Assembly: GCF_016801985.1 (NCBI RefSeq)
Contig: NZ_JAEVLS010000002.1
Span: forward strand, 1 to 64,000
Origin: Steroidobacter gossypii
GTDB taxonomy: Bacteria; Pseudomonadota; Gammaproteobacteria; Steroidobacterales; Steroidobacteraceae
Length of the DNA stretch: 64,000 nucleotides
Reading direction: 5' to 3'
The position numbers were made by a program, and so were the translations under genes. The notes under the pieces were generated by a model. It saw only the letters and a program-made list of their open reading frames with translations. It was not told where the DNA came from and did no database searches. Below are positions 1-33,115 of this stretch, one piece after another (positions within the stretch are counted from its first letter, which is position 1; every line of letters starts with the position of its first letter).

Positions 1-722
1 CAGGACCTGCGCACCGGCGGCACGGATCTGGCCATTGCCGGCGGCGTGAACCTGAGCATCCATCCGGGCAAGTACAGCATGCTGAGCGCCGGGCAGTTCA
101 TCTCGAGTGCGGGGCACTGCCAGAGCTTCGGTGAAGGCGGGGATGGCTATATTCCCGGCGAAGGCGTGGGCGCGGTGATTTTGAAACGACTGTCGGATGC
201 CGAGCGCGATGGCGATGCGATCTACGCCATCATCCGCGGCAGCGCGCTGAATCACGGCGGAAAGACGAACGGCTACACGGTGCCGAATCCGCAAGCACAA
301 GCGGCGGTGATCGGGCAGGCGTTGCGGGATGCGGGCATCAGTGCGCGCCAGGTGAGTTACATCGAAGCGCATGGCACCGGGACCAAGCTCGGCGATCCGA
401 TCGAGATCGCGGCGTTGAGCAAGGCGTTTCAGCAGTACACGGGCGACACGCAGTTCTGTTTGCTCGGCTCGGCGAAGTCGAACATCGGGCACTGCGAGTC
501 GGCGGCGGGCATCGCGGGGCTGACGAAAGTGGTTCTGCAGCTGCGCCACCGGCAGATCGTGCCGTCGCTGCATTCGCAACGTTTGAATCCGAACATCGAC
601 TTCGAGCGCAGCCCGTTCATCGTGAACCAGCAGCTGCGCGACTGGGAGGCTCCTGTCGTCGATGGCAAGCCGGTCGCGCGCATCGCTGGTTTGTCTTCAT
701 TCGGCGCGGGCGGTGCGAACGC
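1..722 (+). repeat. KS repeat copy 1 (PKS-A), 99% identical to 10396-11117
   Basis: By direct comparison, this stretch matches 10396-11117 with five single-base differences (at 512, 600, 607, 643 and 691). The match stops sharply at 722/11117, at the end of the KS core. The left end is cut by the window edge, so the repeat may be longer. One difference changes Arg to Cys (DFERSPF versus DFECSPF). Flanking linker and DH0 regions are clearly diverged, which points to recent gene conversion or recombination limited to the KS. Confidence 0.95.
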
Positions 723-3700
723 GCATCTTTTGGTCGAGGAATACACCGCGCCATTGAAGCATGAGTCGGTGCAGGAAAGCGCGCCTTGTGTCGTCCTGCT
801 GTCGGCGCGAACGCTCACTCAGTTACAGCAGAAGTCGCGCGATCTCAAAGCGTTCATCGACAACGATCCCAACATCGATCTGTTATCGCTCGCTTACACC
901 ACACAGATCGGCCGCGAAGCGATGGATGAGCGCGTGGGCATCCTGGTGTCTTCACGAGAGCAATTGCTCGAACGGCTGGCGCTGTTCGCTGCCAGCGCGA
1001 GCGAAGATGACGGTGCGCTCGCCGATGACATGTTCTACGCCCAGATCAAGCGCCATCGCGACGCCATGGCGCTGTTCAGCGCCGATGAGGATTTGCAGGC
1101 CAGTGTCGATGGCTGGTTCCGCGCCGGCAAGTGGTCGCGCCTGGTGGATGTCTGGACCAAAGGGCTCGAAATCGACTGGCGACGATTGTATGCGTCGTCT
1201 GTGCCCAGGCGCCTGCACTTGCCTACTTATCCGTTTGCGCGGGAAAGATACTGGCGTGAAGATGCCGATGAACGCACCGACGCCATCGTGGTGCCTCTCT
1301 CCGGTCATTCGCTGCTACAGCAAAACATCTCGAAGCCGGGTCAACAACGTTATCGAAGCTTGCTCGGCGTGGACGGCCAGCGCTACAGAGGCATCGAGCT
1401 TTTCGGCAATCCCATCTTGTCGCGCGGTGTTCTGATCGAAGCGGCGCGTGCGGCGCTCGAGGACGCGTTGCCGTCATTCGAGCGCAGCTCGGCTTTGGAA
1501 CTGCACGACGTAAGGCTCGCTTCACCCGTTGAAACGCTGGAGCACGTTCCCGTTGAGATCTCGGTGCTGCTGCCGGGCCAGGGTCGACGGCCAGCGCCCG
1601 AAGATGTCGCGTTCGAGATCACCAGTCAGAGCGCCGAACCGGTGGTGCTGTGTCAGGGGCTGGCGAGAGAGTGCGCGGACGAACCGGCTCACGTGCTCGA
1701 CGTTGCGAGTTTGCTAAGACGCGCTTCACCGATGCTTGGTGACAAGAACGCGGTCGCGAGCGCGTGTCAGTCGCTCGGGCTCGAGATCGCGCCGTTGTAT
1801 CAAGCTGTCACGTCAGTGCATCAGGCGACGGATGGATTGTTGTTGACGTTCGAGTCGTCGGACGCTTCCCGAGCAGCATTCGCTGACTTCGTGGTACAGC
1901 CGGCGGTGCTTGACGGCGCATTGATTGCTGCGCAATGGCTCCGCCGTCCTGTGGGCGATGGCCTGTATCTTCCGGCGAGCATCGCGACCCTGCGATGCAA
2001 TGTTGCGAGTCAGCAGCCGCAGTATGCGTGGATTCAGCTCTCGAATGCGCAGCCAAGGAATGATGCGTTCAGCGTCGATGTGACGATTTGCGATGCCGAT
2101 GGCAACGTCTGCGCTTCTTTCGGTCAGCTGACGTTAGTCGCAGCGAAGCTTCAGCCCGCGGCCGAGATCGATGCGCCGATCGCCGAACCGTCCGAACCCA
2201 CCATACACACCCCGGATCGCGCGTTCGCTGCGCTCGACAAACCCACCGCGATCGATCTGACGACACCGGAAGAAATCGATGCGCTGGCTGTCTCATCGAC
2301 GTTGCACAAGCCCGCGCTGGCTCTGGCGGCACGGGCCGACGCGCGAGACCTGGATGAGGGTGTGTCCATCGTCCTCGATGAACGAGGCGCGGGCATTTTC
2401 ACTCTGCGCTTGCAACGCAATGAAGGCAGATTCGATGAGCGATTGATCGGCGAGCTCGAACAGGCCCTGAAACGCGCGCGTGACCTGCCAACGATCAAAG
2501 CCTTGGTGATCGAGAGCGACGATCAGCGTTTGCCGAGCGCCGACCAAGACGTACTCGCCAGCGAAGCGGCGCGCGCGCTCTGGCACACCTTGGCTTCGTT
2601 TCCATATCCAACTGTGGCCGTACTGTCCAAGGCGGCATCGGGCGCGGGATTCTGGATCGCGTGTGTGTGCGATTTTGTTGTCGCCGTTGACGATCAGTCC
2701 TACGGTCTCGAGACGGCAGATGGATGGTCGTTGACGCAGGCGTGGCAAAGAGACTGGCTCGACGCGCGCTTTGGCGAGCCGTTCGCGGCCTTGCTGGCAA
2801 TGAACACCAGCAATCTCCTCGGCCGGGAGTTGCGGGACGCGGGCTGGGGTGCACGCGTGGTTGCGCAAGCTCAGGTCGATGGTGTCGTACAGGAGTTGTG
2901 CCAGGGCCTCGGCGAGAAAACGCAAAGCGCGCTGCGTCTACTCAAGCAACACATGGCGATGGAGTTCGAAGCGCGGGTTGCCGAACTCAGCTCAGCCGAA
3001 AGCTCACGGGCGATCAGTGCGCCCCGGGAATCTGTGTTGCAGGCGACGTCGGCTCCGAGCTGTGTCGAATCTGTTCGCAGCGACAACAACCAGGTCCATC
3101 TGCGACTGAGATCGCGAAATGGAACGGGTACTGCCGCTGCGCTGCTCGAACTGCGCGTCGCGCTTGAAGCTTGTAGCGGGGCCAGCGCGGTCCTCCTGAG
3201 CAGCGAGCTCAACGAGTTCTTGCCGGAGGACGCGGCTCGGCACAGCCAAACACTGCAGCAGTTGGTGTTTGCAGTGCTGCAACTCAACGCACCCATCATC
3301 GCGGTGCTGGATCGGAATGCGACCAATGCCGGGTTCCTGCTGGCACTGGCATGTGATGCCGCCGTTTACAGCGAGGGCGGCCGCTACGGTGGACTCGCGT
3401 TGCGAGATCATCGGGATCATCTGGCGCTGCTCGACGAAGTCACGCGGCAACGCTTAGGAGTCTGGGCGAGCGTCTGGACATTGACTGGCATGATGAGTGG
3501 CGCATGCGAGCTGCGGCAGCGTTTGCCGATGCTGGAGGTTTGTTCCGCCGACGCGGTGATGGACAAAGCGCAGCAGCTGGCCGACACGTTATCAGCTGTG
3601 TCACGAGATCTTTTCCGGCGTAAGACTGCGCTCGTTGCCCGCATCAGGCAGCGCGAACAGCCGTATGTCGAGCAGGCGACCGCTGACGCGCTGCCGACTC

Positions 3701-6700
3701 AGGAAATGCGATTAGCGCTGACGTCGAGTGTGGTTCGCGCGAGCGTCGATGCGGACGGTGTCGTGCTGGTGCATCTGGAAGACCGCGACGCGAAGAACAT
3801 GTTCTCCGACGCGCTGATCGCAGGCCTGCAGGAAGTGTTCGAACATGTACGCCAGTCGCTTTCATACAAAGCTGTCGTGCTCGTTGGCTATGACACTTAC
3901 TTTGCGTCCGGCGGCACGCGCGACGGATTGAAAGCGATTCACGCAGGTAAGGTGCGCTTCACCGACCTGGACGTCTTTCAGCTGGCGATGCGATGTCCGC
4001 TGCCGGTGGTGGCGGCAATGCAGGGCCACGGCATCGGGGCAGGCTGGACGCTCGGACTGTTTGCGGATTGCATGGTGTTCAGTGAAGAGAGCCGATACGT
4101 CAGCCCCTATATGAACTTCGGGTTCACGCCTGGCGCGGGCGCAACCGGCGTGCTGCCGCTGAAGCTTGGCCTCGATCTGGCGCGAGACAGCCTGTTCACC
4201 GGTCGCGAAATGTTGGGTAGCGAGATCCAGCAGCGCAATCCACTCTTGACAGTCGTGCCGCGCGCTCAGGTGCTGTCGGACGCAATGGCGATCGCTCGCT
4301 CGCTGAGCCGGCACGACCGCAACGATCTGCTTGCCTGGAAAGCCGCAAGCACTGCGCATCGGCTGGCTGCCTGGGAAGCTTTGTTTGCTCGCGAAGTCGC
4401 GATGCACGAGGCTACGTTGGTCGGTCAGACCGACACGCTGGCGCGCATCGAGCAGCGTTTTTCGCCGAGCGCATCTGCGCCGGCGAAGGCAGAGGTAAGC
4501 CTCTCGTCCGCATCTTCGCAGCGCGTTGATGTATTGCCGACCATCCGCCGTTTGCTCGCCGAGGAGTTGCGCCTCGGCGAAAGCGACATCGAGGCACGTA
4601 CGCCGTTCGTGGATTTGGGGTTGGACTCGATTTCGGGGGTGACCTGGATCCGCAAGATCAACGCCGAGTTCGGGCTCGCGATCGAGGCGACCAAGATCTA
4701 CAGCCACCCCAATTTGCAGCAGCTCAGTCGATACATCGGTGAGCTCTCGCAGGCGCATGCAAACATACCGGGCCCTTCGCACATCGAGCCCAAGGCAGAG
4801 GTTGCGGTGGAGCGGGTGCCGACGCCCGTTGCAATCAAGAAGGCCGGCGCGACGTTCGTCGGTTGGGAAAAGCTTGCCTCGTGGCGAGATGACAGCAGCG
4901 TCGCTGCGAGCACCTCGCACTCAACGCCGGCGCAGGCGCCAGCCATTGCCGTGATCGGCATGGCGGGGCGTTTCCCCATGGCGAAGGACCTGGAGCGATT
5001 CTGGGACAACATCGCCAACGGAAAAAACTGCATCAGCGAAGTGCCGCCGTCGCGCTGGAACATGGACGCGCTGTTCGTGGACGGCAGAGCGGTGCTCGGT
5101 CAAAGCAGCTCCAAGTGGATGGGCGTGCTCGAAGGCCACGACCAGTTCGATCCGCTGTTCTTTGGGTTATCGCCGATCGAGGCCGAGGCCATGGACCCGC
5201 AGCAGCGCCTGTTCCTGCAATGTTGCTGGCACGGCATGGAAAACGCGGGTTACACCGCCGAGCGACTGTCCGGAAGCAAATGCGGTGTGTTCGTAGGCTG
5301 TGCGCACGGCGACTACAACTTGTTGTCACGCGAACAGCAAATCAGTGCATTGGGTTTCACCGGCGGCGCGCCATCCATTCTGGCCGCGCGTGTCGCATAT
5401 TTCCTCAACCTGCAAGGACCTTGCATTTCGATCGATACGGCGTGTTCGTCTTCGCTGGTCGCCATCGCGACCGCCTGCGACAGCTTGATCACCGGCGCTT
5501 CCGATGTCGCGTTCGCCGGCGGCGTCTATGTCATGGCGAACGCCGACATGTTCTTGAAGACCAGTCATGCCGGCATGCTGTCGCCGGACGGACGCTGTTA
5601 TACATTCGATCAGCGCGCCAATGGCTTCGTCCCGGGCGAGGGCGTGGGTATCGTGCTCTTGAAGCGCCTGGCGGATGCCGAGCGCGATGGCGATCGGATC
5701 CTCGCGGTGGTGCGGGGATGGGGTGTCAACCAGGACGGCAAGACGAACGGCATCACCGCACCGAATGCCGATTCGCAGCAGCGCCTGATCAAGGATGTTT
5801 ATTCCAGGTTCTCGATCGATCCGCGGCAGATTCAGTTGATCGAGGCGCACGGCACCGGCACCAAGCTCGGCGATCCGATCGAGATCGAAGCGCTGAAGTC
5901 GGCGTTCTCGGCAGCGACGCAAGACAGGAATTACTGCGCCGTCGGTTCCGTGAAGACCAACATCGGACACTGTTTGACGGCGGCCGGCATCTCCGGCTTC
6001 ATCAAGCTGCTGCTGGCGATACGTCATCGACAGCTGCCGCCCAGCATCAATTTCGAAACGCCGAACGAACATCTCGGCCTCGACAACAGTCCGTTCTATG
6101 TAAACACCGCGTTGCGCGAGTGGGAAACGCCGGTCGAGGTGCCGCGTCAGGCGGCGATCAGCTCGTTCGGCTTCAGTGGTACGAATGCCCATATAGTGCT
6201 CACGGAGTACACGCCGCCCGTGTCGCAAGCCGCCACATCAGTCGTGGCACCACACGCTGGTTTCGTCATTCCGATCTCGGCGCGCACGCCCGAACAGCTG
6301 CTGCAGAAGGCAAGGGATTTGCGCGACTTCATGCAAGCACAACGCGGCTTGTCACTGGCTGAGTTGAGCAGCAGCTTGCAGCTGAACCGCGATCCCATGG
6401 AGGAGCGTCTTTGTTTCGTCGCCCATGATGTTCCCCAGGCGATCGATGACCTGAGTATCTATATCGATGCCGCCGCTGCGGGAAAACCACTGCCCGTGCA
6501 GCTGTTCGCGGCGAACATCAAGCAGGGCCGCGAGAGCATTCGACTGTTCAGCGAGGACGACGATGTGCGGACGCTCGTCATCGATAAGTGCATCGCCGAG
6601 GGCGGCATGAGCAGGCTCTGCGAGCTATGGGTCAAAGGCCTCGTGCTCGATTGGCGCAAACTGTACGGCTCGCACAGACCCAGCTCGATCAGTTTGCCGC

Positions 6701-7116
6701 TGTACCCGTTCGCCGCGGAATCGTACTGGGTTACGCCGACCGTTCCATCGATCGATGCGGTCTCGGTCCGAGGCAGCGAACTGCCGCGGAAGTTTCATCC
6801 ATTGCTGCACGAAAAGGTCGCCGACATCGCGGACCAGGGGTACCGCCAGGATGCGAGTGCCGACGACAGTCTCATGGATGGTGACAAGAAGATTCGCCTG
6901 ATGCATTTGCCGACCTATGCGTTCGCGCGCATGCGCTGCTGGTTTTCGAGCAAAGAAAGCCTGCGATCGAGCGACAGTGCACGAGTGGTTCCGCTGCCGA
7001 CACCCCACCGGCGGCTCGGCAAGGGCCTGGATTCCATTGCCGAGCTGTTCACCGAGCTCGAGCAGGGGAAGGTGACCACCGGCGAGGTGGTCAAGCGCGT
7101 GAAATCGCTGGCGTAG
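1..7116 (+). CDS. trans-AT polyketide synthase A (5' partial): KS-DH0-ECH-ECH-ECH-ACP(beta)-KS
   Basis: The frame is open from base 1, so the N-terminus lies outside the window. Domains by nucleotide position: C-terminal half of a KS (1-730; EAHGTGTKLGDP and NIGHCESAAG histidines); post-KS linker ending YPFARERYW near 1250; a DH-like fold (about 1300-2140) with no HxxxGxxxxP motif, so inactive; three consecutive crotonase folds (about 2353-2985, 3080-3670, 3738-4460); an ACP with Ser at 4627-4629 in DSISGVTW; and a complete KS (about 4940-6210, Cys at 5443-5445 in DTACSSSL). Only the third crotonase keeps an ECH2-like core (FASGGTRD, MQGHGIGAGW); the first two look degenerate. The Trp six residues after the ACP serine is the known beta-branching flag. 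There is no AT domain, so acyl units must come from a discrete AT. The C-terminus ends in a short helical tail (ELEQGKVTTGEVVKRVKSL), probably a docking element for PKS-B, which starts 30 bases later. Confidence 0.95.
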   Translation, partial: QDLRTGGTDLAIAGGVNLSIHPGKYSMLSAGQFISSAGHCQSFGEGGDGYIPGEGVGAVILKRLSDAERDGDAIYAIIRGSALNHGGKTNGYTVPNPQAQAAVIGQALRDAGISARQVSYIEAHGTGTKLGDPIEIAALSKAFQQYTGDTQFCLLGSAKSNIGHCESAAGIAGLTKVVLQLRHRQIVPSLHSQRLNPNIDFERSPFIVNQQLRDWEAPVVDGKPVARIAGLSSFGAGGANAHLLVEEYTAPLKHESVQESAPCVVLLSARTLTQLQQKSRDLKAFIDNDPNIDLLSLAYTTQIGREAMDERVGILVSSREQLLERLALFAASASEDDGALADDMFYAQIKRHRDAMALFSADEDLQASVDGWFRAGKWSRLVDVWTKGLEIDWRRLYASSVPRRLHLPTYPFARERYWREDADERTDAIVVPLSGHSLLQQNISKPGQQRYRSLLGVDGQRYRGIELFGNPILSRGVLIEAARAALEDALPSFERSSALELHDVRLASPVETLEHVPVEISVLLPGQGRRPAPEDVAFEITSQSAEPVVLCQGLARECADEPAHVLDVASLLRRASPMLGDKNAVASACQSLGLEIAPLYQAVTSVHQATDGLLLTFESSDASRAAFADFVVQPAVLDGALIAAQWLRRPVGDGLYLPASIATLRCNVASQQPQYAWIQLSNAQPRNDAFSVDVTICDADGNVCASFGQLTLVAAKLQPAAEIDAPIAEPSEPTIHTPDRAFAALDKPTAIDLTTPEEIDALAVSSTLHKPALALAARADARDLDEGVSIVLDERGAGIFTLRLQRNEGRFDERLIGELEQALKRARDLPTIKALVIESDDQRLPSADQDVLASEAARALWHTLASFPYPTVAVLSKAASGAGFWIACVCDFVVAVDDQSYGLETADGWSLTQAWQRDWLDARFGEPFAALLAMNTSNLLGRELRDAGWGARVVAQAQVDGVVQELCQGLGEKTQSALRLLKQHMAMEFEARVAELSSAESSRAISAPRESVLQATSAPSCVESVRSDNNQVHLRLRSRNGTGTAAALLELRVALEACSGASAVLLSSELNEFLPEDAARHSQTLQQLVFAVLQLNAPIIAVLDRNATNAGFLLALACDAAVYSEGGRYGGLALRDHRDHLALLDEVTRQRLGVWASVWTLTGMMSGACELRQRLPMLEVCSADAVMDKAQQLADTLSAVSRDLFRRKTALVARIRQREQPYVEQATADALPTQEMRLALTSSVVRASVDADGVVLVHLEDRDAKNMFSDALIAGLQEVFEHVRQSLSYKAVVLVGYDTYFASGGTRDGLKAIHAGKVRFTDLDVFQLAMRCPLPVVAAMQGHGIGAGWTLGLFADCMVFSEESRYVSPYMNFGFTPGAGATGVLPLKLGLDLARDSLFTGREMLGSEIQQRNPLLTVVPRAQVLSDAMAIARSLSRHDRNDLLAWKAASTAHRLAAWEALFAREVAMHEATLVGQTDTLARIEQRFSPSASAPAKAEVSLSSASSQRVDVLPTIRRLLAEELRLGESDIEARTPFVDLGLDSISGVTWIRKINAEFGLAIEATKIYSHPNLQQLSRYIGELSQAHANIPGPSHIEPKAEVAVERVPTPVAIKKAGATFVGWEKLASWRDDSSVAASTSHSTPAQAPAIAVIGMAGRFPMAKDLERFWDNIANGKNCISEVPPSRWNMDALFVDGRAVLGQSSSKWMGVLEGHDQFDPLFFGLSPIEAEAMDPQQRLFLQCCWHGMENAGYTAERLSGSKCGVFVGCAHGDYNLLSREQQISALGFTGGAPSILAARVAYFLNLQGPCISIDTACSSSLVAIATACDSLITGASDVAFAGGVYVMANADMFLKTSHAGMLSPDGRCYTFDQRANGFVPGEGVGIVLLKRLADAERDGDRILAVVRGWGVNQDGKTNGITAPNADSQQRLIKDVYSRFSIDPRQIQLIEAHGTGTKLGDPIEIEALKSAFSAATQDRNYCAVGSVKTNIGHCLTAAGISGFIKLLLAIRHRQLPPSINFETPNEHLGLDNSPFYVNTALREWETPVEVPRQAAISSFGFSGTNAHIVLTEYTPPVSQAATSVVAPHAGFVIPISARTPEQLLQKARDLRDFMQAQRGLSLAELSSSLQLNRDPMEERLCFVAHDVPQAIDDLSIYIDAAAAGKPLPVQLFAANIKQGRESIRLFSEDDDVRTLVIDKCIAEGGMSRLCELWVKGLVLDWRKLYGSHRPSSISLPLYPFAAESYWVTPTVPSIDAVSVRGSELPRKFHPLLHEKVADIADQGYRQDASADDSLMDGDKKIRLMHLPTYAFARMRCWFSSKESLRSSDSARVVPLPTPHRRLGKGLDSIAELFTELEQGKVTTGEVVKRVKSLA

Positions 7117-10100: not shown

Positions 10101-13100
10101 TATCTCGCCGCGCGAGGCGCCGTATATCGATCCGCAGGAACGTTTGTTCCTGCAGCACGCATGGATGGCGATGGAGGATGCGGGTTACACGCGCAAGAGC
10201 CTGCAGGTTCCTCGTGCGAATGGGCTGGCGGGGCAGGTGGGCGTGTACGTCGGGGTGATGTACGGCGAATACAACCGTTCGGGCAGTCTCGCGAGCATCG
10301 CCAATCGCGTCTCGTATGTGCTGAACCTGCACGGGCCGAGCATGACGCTGGACACGATGTGCTCATCGTCGCTGACGGCGATTCATCTGGCATGTCAGGA
10401 CCTGCGCACCGGCGGCACGGATCTGGCCATTGCCGGCGGCGTGAACCTGAGCATCCATCCGGGCAAGTACAGCATGCTGAGCGCCGGGCAGTTCATCTCG
10501 AGTGCGGGGCACTGCCAGAGCTTCGGTGAAGGCGGGGATGGCTATATTCCCGGCGAAGGCGTGGGCGCGGTGATTTTGAAACGACTGTCGGATGCCGAGC
10601 GCGATGGCGATGCGATCTACGCCATCATCCGCGGCAGCGCGCTGAATCACGGCGGAAAGACGAACGGCTACACGGTGCCGAATCCGCAAGCACAAGCGGC
10701 GGTGATCGGGCAGGCGTTGCGGGATGCGGGCATCAGTGCGCGCCAGGTGAGTTACATCGAAGCGCATGGCACCGGGACCAAGCTCGGCGATCCGATCGAG
10801 ATCGCGGCGTTGAGCAAGGCGTTTCAGCAGTACACGGGCGACACGCAGTTCTGTTTGCTCGGCTCGGCGAAGTCGAACATCGGGCACTGCGAGTCGGCGG
10901 CGGGCATTGCGGGGCTGACGAAAGTGGTTCTGCAGCTGCGCCACCGGCAGATCGTGCCGTCGCTGCATTCGCAACGTTTGAATCCGAACATCGATTTCGA
11001 GTGCAGCCCGTTCATCGTGAACCAGCAGCTGCGCGACTGGGAAGCTCCTGTCGTCGATGGCAAGCCGGTCGCGCGCATCGCTGGATTGTCTTCATTCGGC
11101 GCGGGCGGTGCGAACGCTCACTTCGTGATCGAGGAGTACAACGCCGCAGAATCGATCGTGAACGAGGCCATGGCAGCGCCGGTGATCGTGCCGCTGTCGG
11201 CACGTACTGCCGAGCAGTTGACCCAGAAGATGCGTGACCTTCTGGACTTCGTGCGGACTGAAGGCGGTCGGCGCATCGATCTCACTTCCCTGGCCTATAC
11301 GCTGCAAGTCGGTCGCGAGGCGATGGACGAACGCCTGTGCTTCGTCGTCGAGTCCGTGCCGGAGCTGGAGCGAGTACTGCGTGCCTGTCTCGACGGCGAT
11401 ACCGGAGAGGTGTTCCGCGGTCACGTCAAAGCGCATAAGGAGACGTTGGCGCTGTTCGCGGCGGATGCCGCATTCGAACAGGCGCTCGACCAGTGGATCG
11501 AGCAGCGCAGCCTCGCCAAGCTGGCGGAGCTGTGGGTGCGGGGATTGGATCTCGACTGGCAGAAATTTTACGGTCAGCAACGGCCGCGGCGCGCCCATCT
11601 GCCGTCGTACCCGTTCGCGAAAGACAAATACTGGATCGATCCGAACAAGGGGTTGTTCCCTGTCGATGTACCGAGCCAATCTCAAACTCCGACGGTCATC
11701 CATCCGCTACTGCATGCCAACACCTCGGATCTCGAGCAGTTGAGGTTCTCATCGGTCTTTCACGCCAATGAGCTCACGCCGTCGGCAATGCAATGCTCGA
11801 TGTTGTTGGAGATGGCGTGCGCGGCGCTGAATCGGGCGCGCAGGGCCCCGCAAGCTGGTGCGCTGGAATTGCGGTCGCTGCGCTTTGGCGAATCTTTCGT
11901 AGCTGACGGTGAGCGCGCGTTGCATATCGCACTCTATCCGTCGGCGGACGACGTGATCGATTTCGACATCTATAGCAACGATGCCGGCGAGCGCGTTCAC
12001 AGCCAGGGAAGCGGCGTCTTCACGACGTCCGTGCGCAGCGAAAGGATCGACATCGATGCCATCAAGAGGCGCCTGCATGAGGTGCCGTTGTCATCGAATC
12101 CATCGCCATCGGCTCGGCGCGCTTGGCTGGGCGCGCAGGAAATGCTGATCGGTATCGACAGTGGCGATGTCGGCAAGTCGGATCCCGATGAATGCTCATT
12201 GCCCCCCGCGTTGGTGCAGTCGGTGCTCGACACCGCGGCCACGGCGCTGCACATCGGCGATGCAACGCCGGAGATGATCGAATCGCTGTGTGTGATGTTT
12301 GCGTGTACGCCCAGCATGCGGGTGTGGGTACGGTGGCGTGACGGCGCCACGAATGTTTGGGACATGGACTGGTGCGACGCCTCTGGAACTGTGTGTCTGC
12401 GTTGGCGTGGATTGTCACTGGCTGTATCGGCGCACAGGGAAGACGATGCACCAGCAGTCACTGTGCAGGTTGTCCCTGCTGCAGTCGGCAATGGCTTGAC
12501 CAAGCCCAGCGCGGTTGCGTTGGCCGAGCTTTCGGCCATGCCGGCCATTGCTCAAACTGCGCTGACAAAACCAGACATCTCACAGTTGATTGCTCTGGAG
12601 GATGCACCCGCCACGATTGCGCGCGTCGATAGCGTATCGGCACCGGTCGTCGCAGCCGCGGTAGTCACACAAATGCCTGTGGAGCAGGTGTCGGCGCGCA
12701 CCGCTGGCGTTGATGTGAAGACGCTCCTGAAACGCACGCTCGCACAAGCGCTGTACCTGGACGAGGCGAGCATCGACGATGATCGGTCGTTCGTCGATCT
12801 GGGGCTCGATTCCATCGTCGGCGTCGAATGGGTCAAGCGCATCAACAAGGAGCTTGGGCTCAGTATCGCCGCCACTCGCGTCTACGATCACGCGAGCGTT
12901 GCCGCGCTCAGCACATATATACAGAGTCAATTGCCGACCAACGAGCCGGCCGTGGTCGTGAAAGCCCTGGATTCCGCGCCGCTCGGCGTCGAGCGCTTGC
13001 AGCAGGAATTGCAGCTGAGTCTGGCGCGGGCGCTATACCTGGATGTCGATGCGATCGACAGCGACAGATCGTTCGTGGATCTGGGGCTCGACTCCATCGT

Positions 13101-16100
13101 GGGTGTCGAATGGGTCAAGGCGATCAATAAAACCTACGGCCTGCAAATCCCGGCGACCCGCGTTTACGACTATGCAAACATTCGAGCCCTCGCGGGCCTC
13201 GTGCACGCCGAGCTGGCAAGGCTGCCCATCGAAGTCCCCGCCCCAAAAGTCGAGATCAGCCCACCCGCTCGCGTCGCCACAGTCAAATTGCCCGCTTTGA
13301 AGCGCCGATCGCGCACACTGGCAACACTTGCCAGCGCGCAACGCGACGAAGAGCCGAACAGGCATCAAGAGAAGATTGCGATCGTCGGCATGGCGGGGCG
13401 CTATCCCGGTGCCGAAAACCTCGCGCAGTTCTGGAGCAACCTGGTCGCCGGCCGCAATTCGATCCAGCAGATTCCGGCGGACCGCTGGGACGTCGACGCG
13501 TACTACGATCCGGAGCCCGGCAAACTCGGCAAGGTGTATTGCAAATGGCTCGGCGTGTTGGAGGGTGCGGAGCATTTCGATCCCTTGTTCTTCCAGATCT
13601 CGCCGTCGGAAGCCGAGATCATGGATCCGCAACACCGCCTGTTCATGCAGGAAAGCTATCGCGCCTTCGAGGACGCTGGCTACTCGAGCACGAAGCTGAG
13701 CAACACGAAGTGCGGCGTGTACCTCGGCATCATGAGCAACGAATACGCATTCCTGCTCGCCAAGGGCAATCCGCAGAACGTCGAGACCACCGGCAACAGC
13801 TTCGCCATCGGCGCCGCGCGCATCGCCTATCACTTGAACCTGAAGGGACCGGCGATCCCGATCGATACCGCCTGTTCCTCATCGCTGGTCGCGGTCCACC
13901 TCGCTTGCCAGGCGCTGTTGAATCGCGAGATCGACATGGGCCTCGCCGGCGGCGTCAGCCTGTACCTGGTTCCAGATTCGTACGTGGGCATGTGCCGGGC
14001 CGGCATGTTGTCGCGAGAGGGGCAATGCAAGACGTTCGACAACGGCGCCGACGGATTCGTGCCCGGCGAGGGTGTCGGGACGGTCGTGTTGAAGCGCCTC
14101 AGCGATGCCGAACGCGACGGCGACAGCATTTATGGGGTCATCATCGGCTCGGGCATCAATCAGGACGGCAAGACCAACGGCATCACGGCGCCGAGCGTGA
14201 ACAGCCAGATCGAGCTGGAACGCGAGATTTATCGCAAGCACCAGATCGATGCGGCTTCGATCAGCTATGTCGAAACGCACGGCACCGGCACCAAGCTCGG
14301 CGATCCGATCGAGCTCGAAGCGCTCGCGACCGTGTTCAAAGAACACACCAGCCAGCAGCGCTTCTGCGCATTGGGCGCGGTCAAAACCAACATCGGCCAC
14401 ACTTCAGGCGCCGCCGGCGTGGCCGGCCTGCACAAGGCACTGCTGTGTTTGCAAAACAGGAAGCTGGTGCCGAGCTTGAACATGACGCAGGAGAACGCGC
14501 TGTTCGACTTCGCCAACTCGCCGTTCTACGTCAACCAGACGGTGCGGGATTGGACTGCGGCGCCTGGAGTAAAGCGACGCGCCGCCATCAGCGCTTTCGG
14601 ATTCAGCGGGACCAATGCGCACGTCGTCATCGAGGAGTACACGGCCGCTCCGCGCGAAGAAGCGGTTCCTCCGCAGACATATATCGTTCCGCTATCGGCG
14701 CGCAGTGCCGAGCAGTTGAGGACGCGGGCGCAGGACATTCTTGTGTTTCTGGAGCGCGCCAACTGTAACGTCTCGTTGCGCGACTTCGCATATACGTTGC
14801 AGGTCGGCCGGGATGCAATGCGAGAGCGCTGCGCCTGGGTCGTGGACTCGATCGAGGAGTTGCAGGCGCAATTGCGTGCGTTCCTGGCGAGTGATGCGAA
14901 CGTCAGCGGGTATCGCGGCGCCGTGGCTCGCACGCAAGACAGCGCGGGATTGGCAGAACAACTGGCATCGCTGAGAAGAGGCGGTGGTCTGCAGCAATCC
15001 GCATCCATTGCAAAACTGTGGACCGAAGGGGCGGACGTGGACTGGTCGTCGCTCTATGCCGGAACGTTGCCCCAACGCTTGCATCTGCCCGGCTATCCGT
15101 TTGCAAAAGAGAGATATTGGGTACAGCCGACCCAGTCGTCCAGCGAGGCAGCGCCACTCGCCGAGCCGAAGGAAGGCAAGCAGAAAACATATTACGCGGC
15201 AAAGTGGCGTGCATCGTCCTTGCCGCCACGCAACGCGCCGTTTGGCCACGAAGATACGCTGTTGATTCTGGACGCCGACGATCGGCTGTTCGAGCAGGTG
15301 CAAGCTCGCCTCCTCACCGCCACGCCGTTGCAGGCGATCGTGTTGGTACAGCTGGCCGGCACGTATCAGCAACACAGCGCCGATCGGTTCAGTGTCGACG
15401 CCGGCAGGCCGGAGCACTTCGACAAGCTGATCGAGACTTTGCGGGCGCAAGGCAAGCATCCCACGCGTGTGATCCACAACTTGAATGGCGCGCGCCTGCT
15501 GTCCAACGACGGCCAAGTCGATGGGGACGATCAAACGCTGGAGCGCGCGCTGCAGGTCGGTGTCGAAGGCTTGTTCGCGCTTTGCAAGGCCCTGGTGGCG
15601 AGCCGGTCGCAGCAGTCGCCGTGCACTTTCGTATCCTACTTTCACGCGGCGGAGGCGGCGAACACGGCGCCTTGCGCGGCCTTGGCCGCGTTCTATCGAT
15701 CCTTGACGCTCGAAAACAATCGTTACAACGGTCGCGTGCTGGAGCTCGATCACCGATGTATCGATGCCGAGCGCAGCGCCATCGACACCGTCACTTGCAT
15801 CATCGAAGAGTTGGAGTCGCCGGCACCCTGGCAAACGGCGATTCGGTATGAGGCAGGCAATGGCGGCCCGGCTCGACGGTTCGTGCTTGGCTTGGAACAG
15901 CAACATCCCGAACAGCAGGTGGCCGCGGAGCTGCCGTTGAAACACGGCGGCGTCTACCTCATCACGGGGGGCCTTGGCGGTTTGGGATACTTGTTCGCAC
16001 GTCATCTCGCCGAGCGCTATCGAGCCAGGCTGGTGTTGAGCGGCCGTTCCGCGCCGAATGAGGAGTCGCAGCGGAAGCTGGATCGGCTGCGTGCATTCGG

Positions 16101-23903: not shown

Positions 23904-23952
23904 GGCGGCGCAGGGTCGAGGCGTCTGGTCATTTCTTTTGTGGAGAATTGCG

Positions 23953-25212
23953 ATGAGAACCGTCGGGATAGAAGCGATGAACGCCTTCGCCGGCACAGCG
24001 TACCTGGACGTCAGGAAGCTCGCGGAGCACCGCAAGCTCGATACGGCGCGCTTCGAGAACTTGCTGATGAAGGAAAAATCGGTAGCGCTGCCGTACGAGG
24101 ATCCGATCACGTTCGGGGTCAATGCCGCGAAGCCAATCGTCGACGCGTTGAGCGCCGCGGAAAAGGACCGTATCGAGATGGTGATCACGTGCACCGAGTC
24201 GGCGTTCGACTTCGGCAAGTCCATGAGCACCTATTGTCATAGTCTGCTCGGATTGAATCGCAACTGCCGTTTGTTCGAGCTGAAGAATGCCTGTTACTCG
24301 GGTGTCGCAGGCATTCAAGCCGCGGTGAACTTCGTGCTGTCCCAGGCCTCGCCAGGGGCCAAGGCGCTGGTGATCGCGACCGATGTGTCGCGCTTCATGG
24401 TGGAGGAAGGCGGGGATGCGCTGACTGCCGACTGGTCGTTTGCCGAGCCGAGCAGCGGTTCGGGCGCGGTGGCCATGCTAATCAGCGAGCAGCCTCACGT
24501 TTTTCAAGTCGACGTGGGCGCCAACGGATATTACGGCTATGAAGTGATGGACACCTGCCGCCCGACGCCGGACGGCGATGCCGGCGATTCGGACCTCTCG
24601 TTGCTGTCCTACCTGGATTGCTGCGAAAACGCTTTCCGCGAATACAACAAGCGCGTGCCCGACGCGAACTATGCGGAGACGTTCACGTATCTCGCGTATC
24701 ACTGTCCGTTCGGCGGCATGGTGAAAGGCGCTCACCGCAACATGATGCGCAAGCTGTTGCAAGCCAAGCCGCAGGTCATCGAGGATGATTTTCAGCGCCG
24801 CGTCACGCCAGGCATGATCTATTGTCAGCGCGTGGCGAACATCATGGGTGCGACAGCATCGCTGGCGCTCGCGAGCACGATCGAGCACGGCAATTTCGAA
24901 CGGCCACGTCGTGTCGGCGTGTTCTCGTATGGCTCCGGCTGCTGCTCTGAATTCTTCAGCGGCGTGGTGCGCGCCGAAGGTCAGCAGCGCCTGCGGGCCA
25001 TGCGAATCAAGCAACATCTCGATCGGCGCACCGAGCTGACCCTGGACGAATATGACCGCCTGCTGGTCGGCAACAACGCCGTGAAGCTCGGCACCCGCAA
25101 CGTCGAGCTCGACACGAGCTTCATCTCGCGTGCCCGCAGCGCGCTCGGCAAGCCGGTGCTGTTCCTGAAACAAATCAAGGAATTTCACCGCGAATACGAG
25201 TGGATCGGCTGA
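23953..25212 (+). CDS. HMG-CoA synthase-like enzyme (HMGS) of beta-branching cassette
   Basis: 419-residue member of the 3-hydroxy-3-methylglutaryl synthase family. In trans-AT clusters this enzyme condenses an acetyl unit from a donor ACP with the beta-keto group of a chain on a Trp-flagged ACP. The catalytic set is visible: Glu in TCTESAFDFGKS, nucleophilic Cys in ELKNACYSG, and His in AYHCPFGGMVKGAH. The ATG at 23953 is preceded by GGAGA at 23942-23946. The stop overlaps the ECH1 start (TGATG), so the two are translationally coupled. Its targets here are probably the ACP at 4627 and the pair at 12811 and 13093. Confidence 0.93.
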   Translation: MRTVGIEAMNAFAGTAYLDVRKLAEHRKLDTARFENLLMKEKSVALPYEDPITFGVNAAKPIVDALSAAEKDRIEMVITCTESAFDFGKSMSTYCHSLLGLNRNCRLFELKNACYSGVAGIQAAVNFVLSQASPGAKALVIATDVSRFMVEEGGDALTADWSFAEPSSGSGAVAMLISEQPHVFQVDVGANGYYGYEVMDTCRPTPDGDAGDSDLSLLSYLDCCENAFREYNKRVPDANYAETFTYLAYHCPFGGMVKGAHRNMMRKLLQAKPQVIEDDFQRRVTPGMIYCQRVANIMGATASLALASTIEHGNFERPRRVGVFSYGSGCCSEFFSGVVRAEGQQRLRAMRIKQHLDRRTELTLDEYDRLLVGNNAVKLGTRNVELDTSFISRARSALGKPVLFLKQIKEFHREYEWIG

Positions 25213-25991
25213 TGGACACGCCTGCCTGCGCGACGCTGCGCACCCGTTTCGACGGCGACATCGCGTACCTGCAAATCCACCGCCCGCAAGCCAACAACAC
25301 GATCAACGAGCAACTGATCAGGGAGTTCACGGCGGCGCTCGACGTGTGCGATACGCGTTGCAAGATCGTCGTCATCGAGGGACTGCCGGAAGTGTTCTGT
25401 TTTGGAGCCGATTTCAAGGAGCTGGAGCAGAGCTCGGAAGGCGGCGAGAGCCGGCAGCAGGATCCAAGGCCCATGTATGCGCTGTGGGGGCGACTTGCGA
25501 CCGGCCCTTTTGTATCGATCGCTCACGTTCGCGGCAAGGCCAACGCCGGCGGAATCGGTTTCGTTGCCGCTTGCGACATCGTGCTCGCGGATGCTGCGGC
25601 GGTGTTCAGCCTGTCCGAGCTGTTGTTCGGTTTGATGCCGGCCTGCGTGCTGCCGTTCCTGATCCGGCGCATCGGCTTCGCGAAAGCCAATTACATGACA
25701 TTGATGACGCAGCCGGTCACAGTGCAGCAGGCACAAGAGTGGGGCCTGGTCGACGCGTATGAAGAAAACAGCGACAACCTGCTGCGCAAGAACCTGTTGC
25801 GCCTGCGCCGACTGAACAAGACCGGCGTCGCCCGCTACAAGCGCTACTTGCATGCGATCGATGGCTCGATCGATGCAGCTGAAGACGCAGCGATCACGGC
25901 GAACCGCGAGGTGTTTGCGGATTCGCAGAACCTGCAAAGGATTGCGCGCTATGTGCGCACGGGTCAGTTTCCGTGGGAGGGCGACTCATGA
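25212..25991 (+). CDS. Enoyl-CoA hydratase ECH1 (dehydratase of beta-branching cassette)
   Basis: 259-residue crotonase-fold protein. By family and position it is ECH1, which dehydrates HMG-ACP to 3-methylglutaconyl-ACP. The oxyanion-hole region CFGADFKELEQ and the turn KANAGGIGFVAACDIVLAD are clear crotonase signatures, and SELLFGLMPACVLPFL follows. It overlaps the HMGS stop by one base and the ECH2 start by four (ATGA), giving a tight HMGS-ECH1-ECH2 unit. Confidence 0.92.
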   Translation: MDTPACATLRTRFDGDIAYLQIHRPQANNTINEQLIREFTAALDVCDTRCKIVVIEGLPEVFCFGADFKELEQSSEGGESRQQDPRPMYALWGRLATGPFVSIAHVRGKANAGGIGFVAACDIVLADAAAVFSLSELLFGLMPACVLPFLIRRIGFAKANYMTLMTQPVTVQQAQEWGLVDAYEENSDNLLRKNLLRLRRLNKTGVARYKRYLHAIDGSIDAAEDAAITANREVFADSQNLQRIARYVRTGQFPWEGDS

Positions 25992-26737
25992 CAGACAGCG
26001 TCGTCGAATTGCAAACCGTGGAGCGGCACGTCTTGCAGATCAAGATGCAGGACCGCGTCAGCAAGAACACGTTCTCGGAAGCGTTGACCCGGGGGCTCAT
26101 CGAGACCTTTGCAGAGGTCGGCGCGCGCTCCGATTGCAAAGTCGTCATCCTCACCGGTTACGACAACTACTTTGCCAGCGGAGGCACGCAAGAAGCGCTG
26201 CTGAGTCTCTCGGCAGGCCACGGCGCTTTCACCGATCGCGATCTGTATAGCCTCGCACTGCGCTGCCCGGTGCCGGTGATCTCGGCGATGCAAGGTCACG
26301 GCATCGGCGGCGGATTCGTGCTCGGGCTGTTTTCGGACATCGTGATACTCAGTCGCGAAAGCATTTATACCGCGAATTTCATGCGCTACGGCTTTACGCC
26401 CGGCATGGGCGCCACTTGCGTGTTGCCGCAGAAGCTGGGCTTTGGGCTGGCGACTGAAATGATGCTCTCGGCAAACAATTATCGCGGCGAGGAACTGCAG
26501 CAGCGCGGTATCTCGTTTCCGGTGCTGCCTCGGGACCAGGTCATGATACGTGCGCTGGAGCTGGCCCAGGTATTGGCTGAAAAGCCGCGCCTGTCGCTGG
26601 TTACATTGAAGGAACATTTGAATGCCTCGCTGCGGGATGCGTTGCCGGGCATGGTCGAGAAGGAAGTGGCGATGCATGCCATCACGTTCCCACAGCCGGA
26701 AGTGAAAGCTCGCATCGAAGAATTGTTCCGGCACTGA
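25988..26737 (+). CDS. Enoyl-CoA hydratase ECH2 (decarboxylase), copy 1
   Basis: 249 residues, crotonase fold of the ECH2 type that decarboxylates 3-methylglutaconyl-ACP to leave a beta-methyl (or exomethylene) branch. Signatures are YDNYFASGGTQEAL, SAMQGHGIGGGFVLGLFSD and MRYGFTPGMGATCVLPQKLG. It is clearly similar to the discrete copy at 32369-33115 and to the third crotonase domain of PKS-A. The ATG overlaps the ECH1 stop. Confidence 0.92.
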   Translation: MTDSVVELQTVERHVLQIKMQDRVSKNTFSEALTRGLIETFAEVGARSDCKVVILTGYDNYFASGGTQEALLSLSAGHGAFTDRDLYSLALRCPVPVISAMQGHGIGGGFVLGLFSDIVILSRESIYTANFMRYGFTPGMGATCVLPQKLGFGLATEMMLSANNYRGEELQQRGISFPVLPRDQVMIRALELAQVLAEKPRLSLVTLKEHLNASLRDALPGMVEKEVAMHAITFPQPEVKARIEELFRH

Positions 26738-26749
26738 GCGAGCGGATCC

Positions 26750-27997
26750 ATGTCGAATCATGAGCAAGAGCAGATCGTCATCAGCGGTGTCGGCGTCACT
26801 GCGGCCATCGGCCAGGGACGAGGTGCTTTCACCGAGGCACTGCTGACGGGCGCGCATCGCTTCGACGTGATGACGCGTCCGGGTCGGCAAGTGCCGGATG
26901 AAGTGACGGACTCGGGCAGCTCATTCATTGGAGCGGAGATCGCGAACCTGGTGCTGCCTGCCGACATACCAGCCGCGAAACTGCGCAATGCTTCCTGGTC
27001 GGCGCAAGTTGCACTCGCGACGTTGCACGAAGCCTGGCACGACGCGTGTCTGGGCGATGTGGATCCGCAGCGAGTCGGGTTGATCATCGGCGGGTCGAAC
27101 ATTCAACAGCGCGAACTGGTGCAGATCCAGCGGCAGTATCGCGAGCAGGTGTCTTTCTTGCGGCCGACCTACGGCATGTCATTCATGGATTCCGATCTGT
27201 GCGGCCTGTGCAGCGAGCTGTTCGGCATCCGCGGACTCGCGTTCACCACGGGTGGAGCATCGGCGAGTGGCCAGCTGGCCGTGATTCAAGCAATCGAGGC
27301 GCTGAAGTCCGGGCAGGTCGATGTCTGTATCGCGCTCGGTGCCTTGATGGACTTGTCCTACTTCGAGTGCCAGAGCTTGCGCTCGCTGGGTGCAATGGGC
27401 TCGGATCGATTCGCGGCCCAGCCCGCGCTGGCATGCCGGCCGTTCGATCGCGATCACGACGGTTTCATTTATGGAGAAGCGTGCGGCGCCGTCGTGATCG
27501 AGCGTGCCGGCACAGCGGTACGGGCGAAACGCGATCCTTACGCAGCGCTGCTGGGGTGGGCAATGGCCTGGGATGCGAATCGAAATCCAAACCCGTCGCT
27601 GGAGGGAGAAACCACGGTGATACGGCGCGCGCTCGCGAATGCGAGCCTGAACGCCGACACGATCGATTACGTGAATCCCCATGGCACCGGCTCGCACGTC
27701 GGCGACGAAACGGAGCTGGATGCGTTGCGTCGCTGCGGTCTCGCGCACGCGTACATCAATACGACCAAATCCATCATTGGACATGGATTGAGCGCCGCCG
27801 GCATCGTCGAGCTGATCGCGGTGCTGCTGCAGATGAATGCGGGCAAGTTACATCCCTCGCGCAATCTCGAGCAACCGCTGGACCCGGCATTTCCATGGGT
27901 GCGGGCGCAGCCTGTCGATCACGTCATCCAGCGCGCGCTGAACATGAGCATGGGATTCGGCGGCATCAATACTGCGGTGTGCGTGGAACGCTGCTGA
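26750..27997 (+). CDS. Decarboxylating ketosynthase-like protein (KS0) of HMGS cassette
   Basis: 415-residue free-standing KS homologue. The nucleophilic Cys is absent: the expected TACxx region reads TTGGASASG, while both catalytic histidines remain (NPHGTGSHVGDE and KSIIGHGLSAAG). Such cysteine-less KSs in HMGS cassettes decarboxylate malonyl-ACP to acetyl-ACP on the donor ACP, supplying the acetyl unit used by HMGS. The donor ACP here is probably at 33126-33365. It starts 12 bases after ECH2. Confidence 0.9.
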   Translation: MSNHEQEQIVISGVGVTAAIGQGRGAFTEALLTGAHRFDVMTRPGRQVPDEVTDSGSSFIGAEIANLVLPADIPAAKLRNASWSAQVALATLHEAWHDACLGDVDPQRVGLIIGGSNIQQRELVQIQRQYREQVSFLRPTYGMSFMDSDLCGLCSELFGIRGLAFTTGGASASGQLAVIQAIEALKSGQVDVCIALGALMDLSYFECQSLRSLGAMGSDRFAAQPALACRPFDRDHDGFIYGEACGAVVIERAGTAVRAKRDPYAALLGWAMAWDANRNPNPSLEGETTVIRRALANASLNADTIDYVNPHGTGSHVGDETELDALRRCGLAHAYINTTKSIIGHGLSAAGIVELIAVLLQMNAGKLHPSRNLEQPLDPAFPWVRAQPVDHVIQRALNMSMGFGGINTAVCVERC

Positions 27998-28036
27998 CGC
28001 ACGCCGCCCAACGACTGACATTGGTTAGGAGATCGA

Positions 28037-29143: not shown

Positions 29144-29150
29144 GTCCGCC

Positions 29151-31601: not shown

Positions 31602-32348
31602 TTGTTCTCGGAACCGTCAACGCTTACCGTACCGGACCTGCCGAATCAGGCGCGCTTCGTTGTCAGCGAAGGGCGGAGCGACTGGTTCGCACCCGATATC
31701 GCGCTGTATCGATGCGATTTCGAGCTCGCGCATTTCGATGACCTGCTGTTCGAGCAGCTCGGCATCGCTTGTCCGCCCAGCGTTCGAAGATCCGTGGCGA
31801 AGCGACGCGCCGAATATCTGGCCGGACGTTATTGCGCCAGCATGGCATTGCGTGCGCTTGGACGATGCGCCGTCCAGATCGCTATTGGCCCTAATCGCGC
31901 GCCGCTGTGGCCGCACTCGATCGTCGGATCGCTCAGTCACTGCGACGGGTCCGCCGTGGCGGCGGTCAGCGCGAATCCGAAGTACCGCGGCATCGGCATC
32001 GACATCGAGAACCACGTCACTGATGCAACGATCGAGAATCTGGAGAGGCTTGTGTTGTGCGGCAGCGAGCGTGCGCTCTTGCCTCGCGTGCCCGATGAGA
32101 GAAGGGCGTGGTTCACGCTGATCTTCTCGCTGAAGGAAAGCTTCTTCAAAGCGGCTTTCGCCACTGTCGGACGGTATTTCGACTTCGACGCAGTGACCGT
32201 GCGTAGCGTCGATCTTGCCAGTGGCCGCATCTGTTTCGAAACCAACTATGGACTGGCCGACAGCCTGCCCGCGAGAACATGCCTGCAGGGTGCGTTTCGT
32301 CTGCTGCCCGACGAACGTGTCGTGACCAGCGTCGCGCTGACCCGCTGA
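31602..32348 (+). CDS. 4'-phosphopantetheinyl transferase (EntD/Sfp superfamily)
   Basis: About 248 residues. Motifs: GSLSHCDGSAVAAVS, GIGIDIENH (Mg-binding Asp/Glu) and FSLKESFFKA (the KE(A/S) motif). It transfers phosphopantetheine from CoA to the ACP serines of the cluster. I chose the TTG at 31602 because AAGGAG (31589-31594) is correctly spaced; no in-frame ATG suits. It lies 32 bases after the MDR gene in the same operon. Confidence 0.88.
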   Translation: MFSEPSTLTVPDLPNQARFVVSEGRSDWFAPDIALYRCDFELAHFDDLLFEQLGIACPPSVRRSVAKRRAEYLAGRYCASMALRALGRCAVQIAIGPNRAPLWPHSIVGSLSHCDGSAVAAVSANPKYRGIGIDIENHVTDATIENLERLVLCGSERALLPRVPDERRAWFTLIFSLKESFFKAAFATVGRYFDFDAVTVRSVDLASGRICFETNYGLADSLPARTCLQGAFRLLPDERVVTSVALTR

Positions 32349-32368
32349 AGTTCCCCATGAGGCCCCTG

Positions 32369-33115
32369 ATGTCAGAACCGATCATCGAATTGAAGGACCT
32401 CGCCAACGGCGTGGCACAGGTCAGAATGCAGGACCGGGTCCATAGAAACGCGTTCACCGAGGCGCTCATCTGTGGTCTGACCGGTACCTTCGCAACCATC
32501 AACAGGAGCACGGACTGCAAGGTCGTGATCCTCACCGGCTACGACGGCTATTTCTCCAGCGGCAGCACGCGAGAGGCATTGCGCGATCTGTTCGCCGGCA
32601 AGTTCAAATTCACCAGCAAGGATCTCGGCGGTCTCGCGTTGAATTGCCCCGTGCCGGTGATCGCGGCCATGCAAGGCGATGGGGTCGGCGGCGGCTTCGT
32701 GCTCGGCGCGTTCGCGGACTTCACGATTCTGGCGCGCGAAAGCGTCTACACGGCGAACTGCATGAACTACGGCTTCACTCCCGGGATGGGAGCGACGTTC
32801 ATTCTGCCGAGGAAGCTCGGGTTCACGCTGGCGGAGGAAATGATGCTCAGCGCATCGGCATACCGCGGCGAGGAGTTGCAAAAGCGCGGCATTCCCTTCG
32901 CCGTCCTGCCCCGCGAAGGCGTGTTGCCCCGTGCCCTGGAGCTCGCCAGGACGTTGGCCGAGAAACCGCGGTTTTCGCTGGTCACGCTCAAGAACCATCT
33001 GGTCGGCTCCATTCGGGAGCAGATGCCACGCATGATCGAACAGGAGGTGGCGATGTATCAGCTCACCTCGCAGCACACCGATGCGAACAGCGTCGAGCCC
33101 ATGTCTGAAAAGTAG
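32369..33115 (+). CDS. Enoyl-CoA hydratase ECH2, copy 2
   Basis: 248-residue crotonase, obviously paralogous to the ECH2 at 25988-26737 along its whole length (GFTPGMGATFILPRKLGFTL, LAEKPRFSLVTLKNHL). Differences fall at active-site loops: MQGDGVGGGF instead of MQGHGIGGGF, and SSGSTREAL instead of ASGGTQEAL. It may have a different regiochemistry, be specialised for one beta-branching site, or be inactive. The ATG at 32369 has GAGG seven bases upstream; an in-frame ATG at 32357 is the alternative. Confidence 0.9.
   Translation: MSEPIIELKDLANGVAQVRMQDRVHRNAFTEALICGLTGTFATINRSTDCKVVILTGYDGYFSSGSTREALRDLFAGKFKFTSKDLGGLALNCPVPVIAAMQGDGVGGGFVLGAFADFTILARESVYTANCMNYGFTPGMGATFILPRKLGFTLAEEMMLSASAYRGEELQKRGIPFAVLPREGVLPRALELARTLAEKPRFSLVTLKNHLVGSIREQMPRMIEQEVAMYQLTSQHTDANSVEPMSEK

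Follow-up and report, generated by a model that had tools for sequence, protein, structure and literature searches.

We analysed a stretch of 64,000 nucleotides from Steroidobacter gossypii (hereafter the window; all coordinates are given within it, and its base 1 is the first base of contig C22), which begins inside the gene of PKS-A, a trans-acyltransferase (trans-AT) polyketide synthase (PKS). One module of PKS-A holds three consecutive crotonase domains (D1, D2 and D3), and we lean towards reading it as a beta-branching module with a built-in decarboxylase of three crotonase domains, one live and two dead. That the three make up a pseudo-trimer in cis, within one chain, is about evenly balanced, the ring arrangement and the docking role being proposals. 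The features of PKS-A, with the evidence on which each was called, are the following.

1..7116, + strand: PKS-A, trans-AT PKS; 2371 aa in the window, 5' end cut by the contig start.
1306..2142, + strand: DH*, dehydratase (DH)-like domain (Pfam PKS_DH_N 30.8 bits, PS-DH 48.3 bits).
2365..2994, + strand: D1, degenerate crotonase domain (Pfam ECH_1, bounds from the AlphaFold model).
3061..3651, + strand: D2, the most degenerate crotonase domain of the trio (Pfam ECH_1, hhalign to D3, model bounds).
3727..4458, + strand: D3, active-looking decarboxylase domain of the enoyl-CoA hydratase (ECH) type ECH2 (PRK07110, PksI match, Foldseek).
4540..4737, + strand: acyl carrier protein (ACP), acceptor of beta-branching with the Trp flag DSISGVTW (Pfam PP-binding).

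The domain order by Pfam is KS(C-part)-DH*-D1-D2-D3-ACP(Trp flag)-KS-C-terminal tail, where KS is ketosynthase, with three ECH_1 stretches in the intact protein. An earlier note on this DNA had placed three tandem crotonase segments at 2353-4460, between a dead DH and a Trp-flagged ACP, and the placement is confirmed. The HxxxGxxxxP motif is absent from DH* (sequence ELFGNPILSRGV), so that this domain is predicted to be dead, and the ACP carries GLDSISGVTW, which follows the DSx5W motif of beta-branching acceptor ACPs as defined in PMC11425284 (this and the other papers are cited for the passages covered). The three segments were also scanned separately, and against Pfam ECH_1 (cut-off 27 bits) D1 scored 82.1 bits (5e-23), D2 31.9 bits (1e-7) and D3 146.4 bits (1e-42). 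Profile-profile comparison with hhalign over 60 trios (73 aligned, 60 kept at <80% identity; the trio of locus L016, 83% identical to that of L086, was dropped) gave E-values of 5e-37 for D1-D3, 4e-33 for D2-D3 and 1e-30 for D1-D2. The modelled stretch spans window 2338-4506 (723 residues). Its AlphaFold model reached a mean predicted local distance difference test (pLDDT) of 86.2 and a predicted template modelling score (pTM) of 0.89 with 69 sequences (67 of the 71 collected trios, without L075, L074, L061 and L078, plus the window and L016; alignment A2), and 71.2 and 0.67 with 6 sequences only. Since we infer that a pTM of 0.89 is out of reach for randomly placed domains, the trio is predicted as one defined three-domain body. 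Both of the first two segments, for which the note had itself suggested a check of the fold, are crotonase folds by hidden Markov model, profile and structure model; a chance crotonase match in D2, conceivable from its low Pfam score, is ruled out by the profile comparison and the model.

The NCBIfam family PRK07110 is the best family for D1, D2 and D3 alike and also includes both free ECH2s of the window, but its cut-off of 215 bits is passed only by D3 (255.9 bits), D1 and D2 falling below at 72.4 and 36.8. The closest solved relatives of D3 are PksI and the CurF ECH2 (PksI 4q1k, E 1e-59), and Foldseek superposes it on PksI 4q1h with a root-mean-square deviation (rmsd) of 2.0 Å and TMt 0.92. 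PksI catalysis relies on His230 and on Gly66 and Gly108, which form the oxyanion hole, Lys80 being dispensable (PMC7501309). In D3, numbered within the modelled stretch, the equivalents of G66, G108 and H230 are G526, A568 and H690; the positions of PksI G66, F81, F136 and H230 are invariant in 60/60 trios, as are G525, G526 and H690, and position 568 is A in 54 and G in 6. The motifs FASGGTRD and MQGHGIGAGW are confined to D3 within the trio. D3 is thus like PksI (4q1g-k) and the CurF ECH2 (2q2x, 2q34, 2q35) in sequence and fold and has the catalytic residues of PksI, and the earlier view that only the third domain is ECH2-like holds by the family cut-off and by these residues. As D3 keeps its catalytic residues invariant and D1 and D2 are without them, D3 alone should be catalytic; we regard it as highly probable that D3 is alive and that D1 and D2 are dead. 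Two PksI chains, 4q1g_A and 4q1g_C, align in Foldseek at rmsd 23.4 and 20.5, against 1.9-2.7 for the other PksI chains, which is taken as an alignment artefact. Separately, an ECH2 that ends an 894-aa frame on an Azospirillum argentinense plasmid (L170) carries a Gln where the catalytic His would be, like the ECHQ proteins described in PMC11425284.

The losses in the first two domains are consistent across the non-redundant trios. The PksI H230 column holds H in 60/60 D3, 0/60 D1 and 0/60 D2; D1 and D2 keep the alpha7 region and stop short of the catalytic His, their C-terminal end being missing. From the first oxyanion motif to a conserved Pro there are 35 residues in all 60 D3s, 27 in 55/60 D1s (fewer in the rest) and at most 27 in 58/60 D2s, so that the segment is shorter than that of D3 in 60/60 for both domains. 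The earlier note had described the first two copies as crotonases with divergent active-site loops. The divergence stands, and the description was incomplete, as the segment is also shorter and the end that bears the His is missing. Failing on the ECH2 His, D1 and D2 rank as relatives of the beta-branching decarboxylases and not as members.

Neither do D1 and D2 resemble ECH1. The column of PksH Asp68 consists only of gaps in 60/60 D1 and 60/60 D2 in an alignment that is loose there, and at the column of PksH Glu137, likewise loosely aligned, E is outside the seven commonest letters in D1 and present in 3/60 D2. The identification of D1 or D2 as an ECH1 is unsupported by these columns, and the four ECH1s that hang inside D1 in the domain tree, on a branch of 4.23 with join support 84/30, reflect long-branch placement. 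A retained chemical role for D1 or D2, for instance to hold the acyl chain or move a double bond, would fit the oxyanion-motif glycines of D1, which most relatives keep (G68 56/60, G102 55/60, G104 57/60), but the ECH2 His is found in 0/60, there is nothing at the ECH1 Asp column, the loop is shortened and the first motif of the window D1 reads A and D. We therefore consider such a role very improbable, and the isomerisation by one of the copies that the earlier note had entertained is unlikely, with the ECH2 His in 0/60 of each and the loosely aligned ECH1 Asp column made of gaps only. Another of its suggestions, that the dead copies are structural, fares better: without catalytic residues, D1 and D2 are probably structural.

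Both domains are mostly under purifying selection. Across the 16 closest pairs, the ratio of nonsynonymous to synonymous substitution rates (dN/dS) is 0.08-0.46 for D1 (16/16), 0.11-0.36 for D2 in 14/16 and 0.045-0.30 for D3. These values bear on the explanation that D1 and D2 are tolerated remnants of a duplication, on course to be lost. It gains from the history of D2 in the lineage of the window, where this domain sits on the longest terminal branch of the tree (2.74) and the loci L031, L044 and L054 no longer have it, but dN/dS stays below 0.5 in 16/16 (D1) and 14/16 (D2) close pairs and the order is kept in at least six phyla, so that decay suits at best the D2 of the window's lineage; as an account of both domains we find it quite unlikely.

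The trio, which the earlier note had called unusual, is not a local oddity of Steroidobacter, a possibility ruled out by its recurrence across phyla. Genome contigs were scanned with the trio as query, and the best 80 (77 loci) of the 340 relatives returned were retained, a set thereby enriched for trios. Among these 77 best-scoring loci, 72 carry D1-D2-D3 in order, some cut by contig ends and two (L082, L089) with the D1 call reduced to a short stub where the contig begins; four have D1-D3 without D2 (L031, L044, L054, L095), and one (L090) is cut. Domains outside the window were labelled with profiles from six trios of the genus for the 77 loci and from the 60 trios for a set of 14 genomes. 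Judging from record titles and tree labels, the hosts belong to at least six phyla (Bacteroidota, Pseudomonadota, Acidobacteriota, Planctomycetota, Verrucomicrobiota and Fibrobacterota), and Pfam alone finds three ECH_1 stretches in 6/6 loci tested. The search for further PKSs with an ECH-ECH-ECH order that the note had proposed has thus been answered by many examples.

In the 14 genomes, picked for holding such loci, 31 of the 39 embedded ECH2s (those in a frame >1000 aa) are triple, seven are double, all of them D1-D3, and one is single, the 31/39 being enriched like the first set; because both sets were chosen by query, trios make up a larger share of them than of embedded ECH2s at large. 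In even samples of 369 genomes of the class and 398 of the phylum (E 1e-35), embedded ECH2s were found only in the window's own genome, in G130, as a double whose D1 is weak (50 bits), and in G254, where one frame encodes D1 and a second frame the two remaining domains. A DSx5W ACP lies at most 420 residues downstream in 53 of the 69 trios with enough sequence, the Trp being absent in 16. DH* is not universal, as Pfam finds no DH in the Planctomycetota locus L049. A rule that three domains are always needed is ruled out by the existing doubles and solos.

The window's genome contains the trio a second time (L016), and two further genomes of the genus have two copies each. The last 127 bases of contig C30 (L151 3467-3593, G000) are identical to window 1-127, and the end of C30 interrupts a PKS frame; if C30 joins the window, L016 would lie ~10.4 kb upstream, resembling the pairs spaced ~10 kb apart in G001 and G011. 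A direct repeat of 749 bases with 98.3% identity lies at window 1-749 and 10396-11144, within two KS domains, and the contig start falls inside it. The window trio and L016 probably belong to one cluster with two trio modules, a join that the KS repeat leaves unproven.

In a tree of 96 domains, drawn from at most 24 of the 60 trios, D2 groups with ECH2 and D3 (98/99) and D1 stands apart. One branch separates D2 from all other domains (92/76, or 100/100 if L150 is removed), and D1 and D3 require two label changes each. The middle domain of L150 (G254) scores best as D3-like, at 139 bits, and is still ECH2-like, as would be expected, as far as the sequences tell, if D2 arose long ago as a copy of ECH2. 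The window D1 and D3 are each sister (100/100) to those of L107, the L031 locus, where D2 is missing, and PKS-A from the ACP to its end is 61-64% identical to L031, L044 and L054, all without D2. Because these three are the nearest PKS relatives of the window and lack D2, this domain was probably lost from a trio in their lineage.

How a trio with one live site might work can be proposed from what is known of free enzymes. PksI and the CurF ECH2 are trimers (PMC7501309), and so is the ECH2 VirE by small-angle X-ray scattering (SAXS) and modelling (PMC10006238). In the crystal of an ACP with the ECH1 VirD, the ACP sits between two monomers, contacting beta10, its loop and alpha10 of one and the beta1-beta2 turn, the alpha1-beta4 loop and alpha7 of the next, and SAXS fits the same for VirE (PMC10006238). 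If the ACP docks between trimer subunits, an ECH2 embedded in a PKS lacks its neighbours unless it carries them along. We hypothesize that an HMG synthase (HMGS) and a free ECH1 would act in trans on the Trp-flag ACP to give 3-methylglutaconyl-ACP, which D3 would decarboxylate in cis; by analogy with the literature on embedded ECH2s, the product would most likely be the exo-methylene (beta,gamma). D1 and D2 would do no chemistry and would stand in for the other two subunits of an ordinary ECH2 trimer. Each chain would thereby be a closed pseudo-trimer with one live site, and the twofold PKS would be spared assembling a threefold enzyme across chains. With the ACP docking between two subunits, a neighbouring crotonase subunit would be needed; D1 is more likely than D2 to be the neighbour with which D3 docks the ACP, because the doubles found are D1-D3, and D2 would close the ring and be dispensable. 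D1 and D2 with the fold and the alpha7 region, and without the catalytic end, are as expected of neighbour subunits.

The conservation of D1 was compared with these contacts. A set of 17 near free ECH2s has 138 conserved columns, and 40 of them are retained by D3 and lost from both D1 and D2. Eight columns are kept in D1 (>=75%) but in neither D2 nor D3, one or both of which have lost them (<=25%), and a ninth column is kept in D1 with intermediate values in D2 and D3. Five of the eight fall at PksI 196-211, beside VirD R192 (PksI 198 in our own alignment), a residue placed on the adjacent monomer (PMC10006238). PksI K199 and H210 are present in 54/60 and 56/60 D1s, 0/60 and 3/60 D3s, 1/60 and 3/60 D2s, and 17/17 and 16/17 of the near free ECH2s, a pattern that is noteworthy because D3, not D1, is the closer kin of the free ECH2s. 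The beta1-beta2 turn of D1 is the sole supposed docking patch above the mean conservation of the domain (2.47 vs 2.30).

Several observations weigh against the pseudo-trimer. The pTM speaks for a defined arrangement only and does not display a ring, and the two other supposed docking patches of D1, alpha7 (2.10) and the alpha1-beta4 loop (1.98), fall short of the domain mean (2.30). Among 12 doubles, K199 occurs in the D1 of 3 and H210 in that of 11, neither residue being present in any D3, and among seven more free or N-terminal plasmid ECH2s K199 is found in 4 and H210 in 2, the solo D3s being mixed; K199/H210 as a clean mark of a partner swap, which held in the first set, is weaker on this wider sampling and lends minor support only. 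D2 is absent from 7/39 embedded ECH2s and from the nearest PKS relatives L031, L044 and L054. There is no partner for 1/39 embedded ECH2s (L147), and none is shown by the plasmid loci L162, L167 and L169. Besides, the dN/dS of D2 is near 1 in two pairs, values that are unsure at a dS of 0.02-0.03, and the D1 of one double (L144) has a His in the H230 column.

The trans-acting partners that the proposed reaction calls for are encoded further downstream in the window.

23938..25212, + strand: HMGS (TIGR01835 E 3e-67, 227 bits; Pfam HMG_CoA_synt N and C).
25200..25991, + strand: free ECH1, dehydratase, PksH-like (PRK07112 395.9 bits, cut-off 250; PksH 3hp0 E 2e-100).
25973..26737, + strand: free ECH2 number 1 (PRK07110 370.2 bits).
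26750..27997, + strand: stand-alone KS with Ser at the active-site Cys (TTGGASAS; Pfam KS, residue from the sequence).
28037-29143 and about 28995-30137, + strand: two trans acyltransferases (Pfam Acyl_transf_1).
32279..33115, + strand: free ECH2 number 2 (PRK07110 324.6 bits).

The HMGS, at 227 bits, is under the TIGR01835 cut-off of 360, which is that of the HMG-CoA synthase of primary metabolism. The Ser-bearing KS is probably a decarboxylating KS0, and a phosphopantetheinyl transferase also lies in the cassette region (23938-33115). HMGS, KS0, ECH1, ECH2 and a Trp-flag acceptor ACP, the set that marks beta-branching by an HMGS cassette, are all present; no donor ACP is found among the open reading frames (ORFs) listed at 29900-30600, and it was not sought elsewhere. 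An ORF of 148 aa at window 30134-30580, between the second acyltransferase and an oxidoreductase, resembles a hotdog thioesterase. The two free ECH2 genes (25973-26737 and 32279-33115) stand alongside the embedded ECH2. A further PKS, PKS-B (P0003), has two tandem Trp-flag ACPs (GLDSIVGVEW; from aa 1870, window about 12720-13150) and no crotonase domain in the protein; these ACPs presumably form a second beta-branching module served by the free ECH1 and ECH2.

An alternative, in line with the gating of HMGS and ECH1 that the earlier note had raised, is that D1 and D2 are docking platforms for trans enzymes (HMGS, ECH1, donor ACP), ordering beta-branching and forming no ring with D3. Domains without catalytic residues that are nonetheless conserved beside the acceptor ACP would suit such a function, and the aurantinin assembly line is steered by an ECH whose catalytic residue is altered and which performs no beta-branching (PMC11425284). 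The model joins D1 and D2 with D3 in one body, however, which a separate platform does not need, and the tandem Trp-flag ACPs of PKS-B lack any ECH match at E 1e-5, so that platforms are not needed in every branching module; we judge this alternative unlikely.

The passages of the literature covered do not explain how a crotonase that forms trimers can function within a PKS module that forms dimers. If the pseudo-trimer is true, one live and two dead crotonases would be a direct, testable answer to the mismatch of twofold and threefold symmetry and would explain why a truncated ECH has been described in several natural-product clusters; for engineers, the decarboxylase may need moving as a three-domain block. 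It is possible, and we put it forward tentatively, a little short of evenly balanced, that the ECH2s embedded in trans-AT PKSs are commonly pseudo-trimers within a single chain, in which D1 docks the ACP together with D3, the middle domain having been overlooked where two ECHs were annotated.

Dead truncated ECHs before an ECH2 and paired ECHs are known, and the trio was not found in print: a search of mainly open full text, in the passages covered, turned up neither three ECH domains in one module nor a pseudo-trimer. The ECH genes of aurantinin, three in number, are separate, and the 'tandem ECH' class of NaPDoS2 is an ECH with an enoylreductase in cis-AT PKSs. BoxC (2w3p) aligned in Foldseek over 591 columns of the first trio model, with rmsd 26.7 and TM 0.21/0.27, which points to a different arrangement, and it is not among the 50 matches listed for the better model. 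PksI and the CurF ECH2 are single domains that form homotrimers (PMC7501309), whereas D3 is one of three domains in a chain. In weishanmycin, an in-cis ECH2 is said to control exo-methylene formation (PMC7618002); the palmerolide study considers an in-line ECH not always predictive of a terminal olefin (PMC8739492). The ECH1-ECH2 of OnnB (onnamide and pederin relatives) gives two ECHs per module linked to exo-methylene, and the motif regions of the first are deleted in several relatives (PMC6855096). There, antiSMASH reports two or one ECH and the first is treated as an ECH1, whereas D1 of PKS-A is, by its residues, neither ECH1 nor ECH2. The closest likeness is to the ECHa-ECHb of lasonolide LasH and LasO, in which a truncated ECH without the oxyanion-hole sites, held to be inactive, directly precedes an ECH2, an arrangement that commonly accompanies exo-methylene formation, endo-methyl being predicted for one of the two ECHa-ECHb modules (PMC9600693). 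D1 and D2, to judge by their sequences, fit such a truncated, catalytically deficient ECH directly before ECH2. Two ECH domains are described for lasonolide against three in PKS-A, and, comparing by the published description, it is possible that a middle domain was overlooked in the las ECHs.

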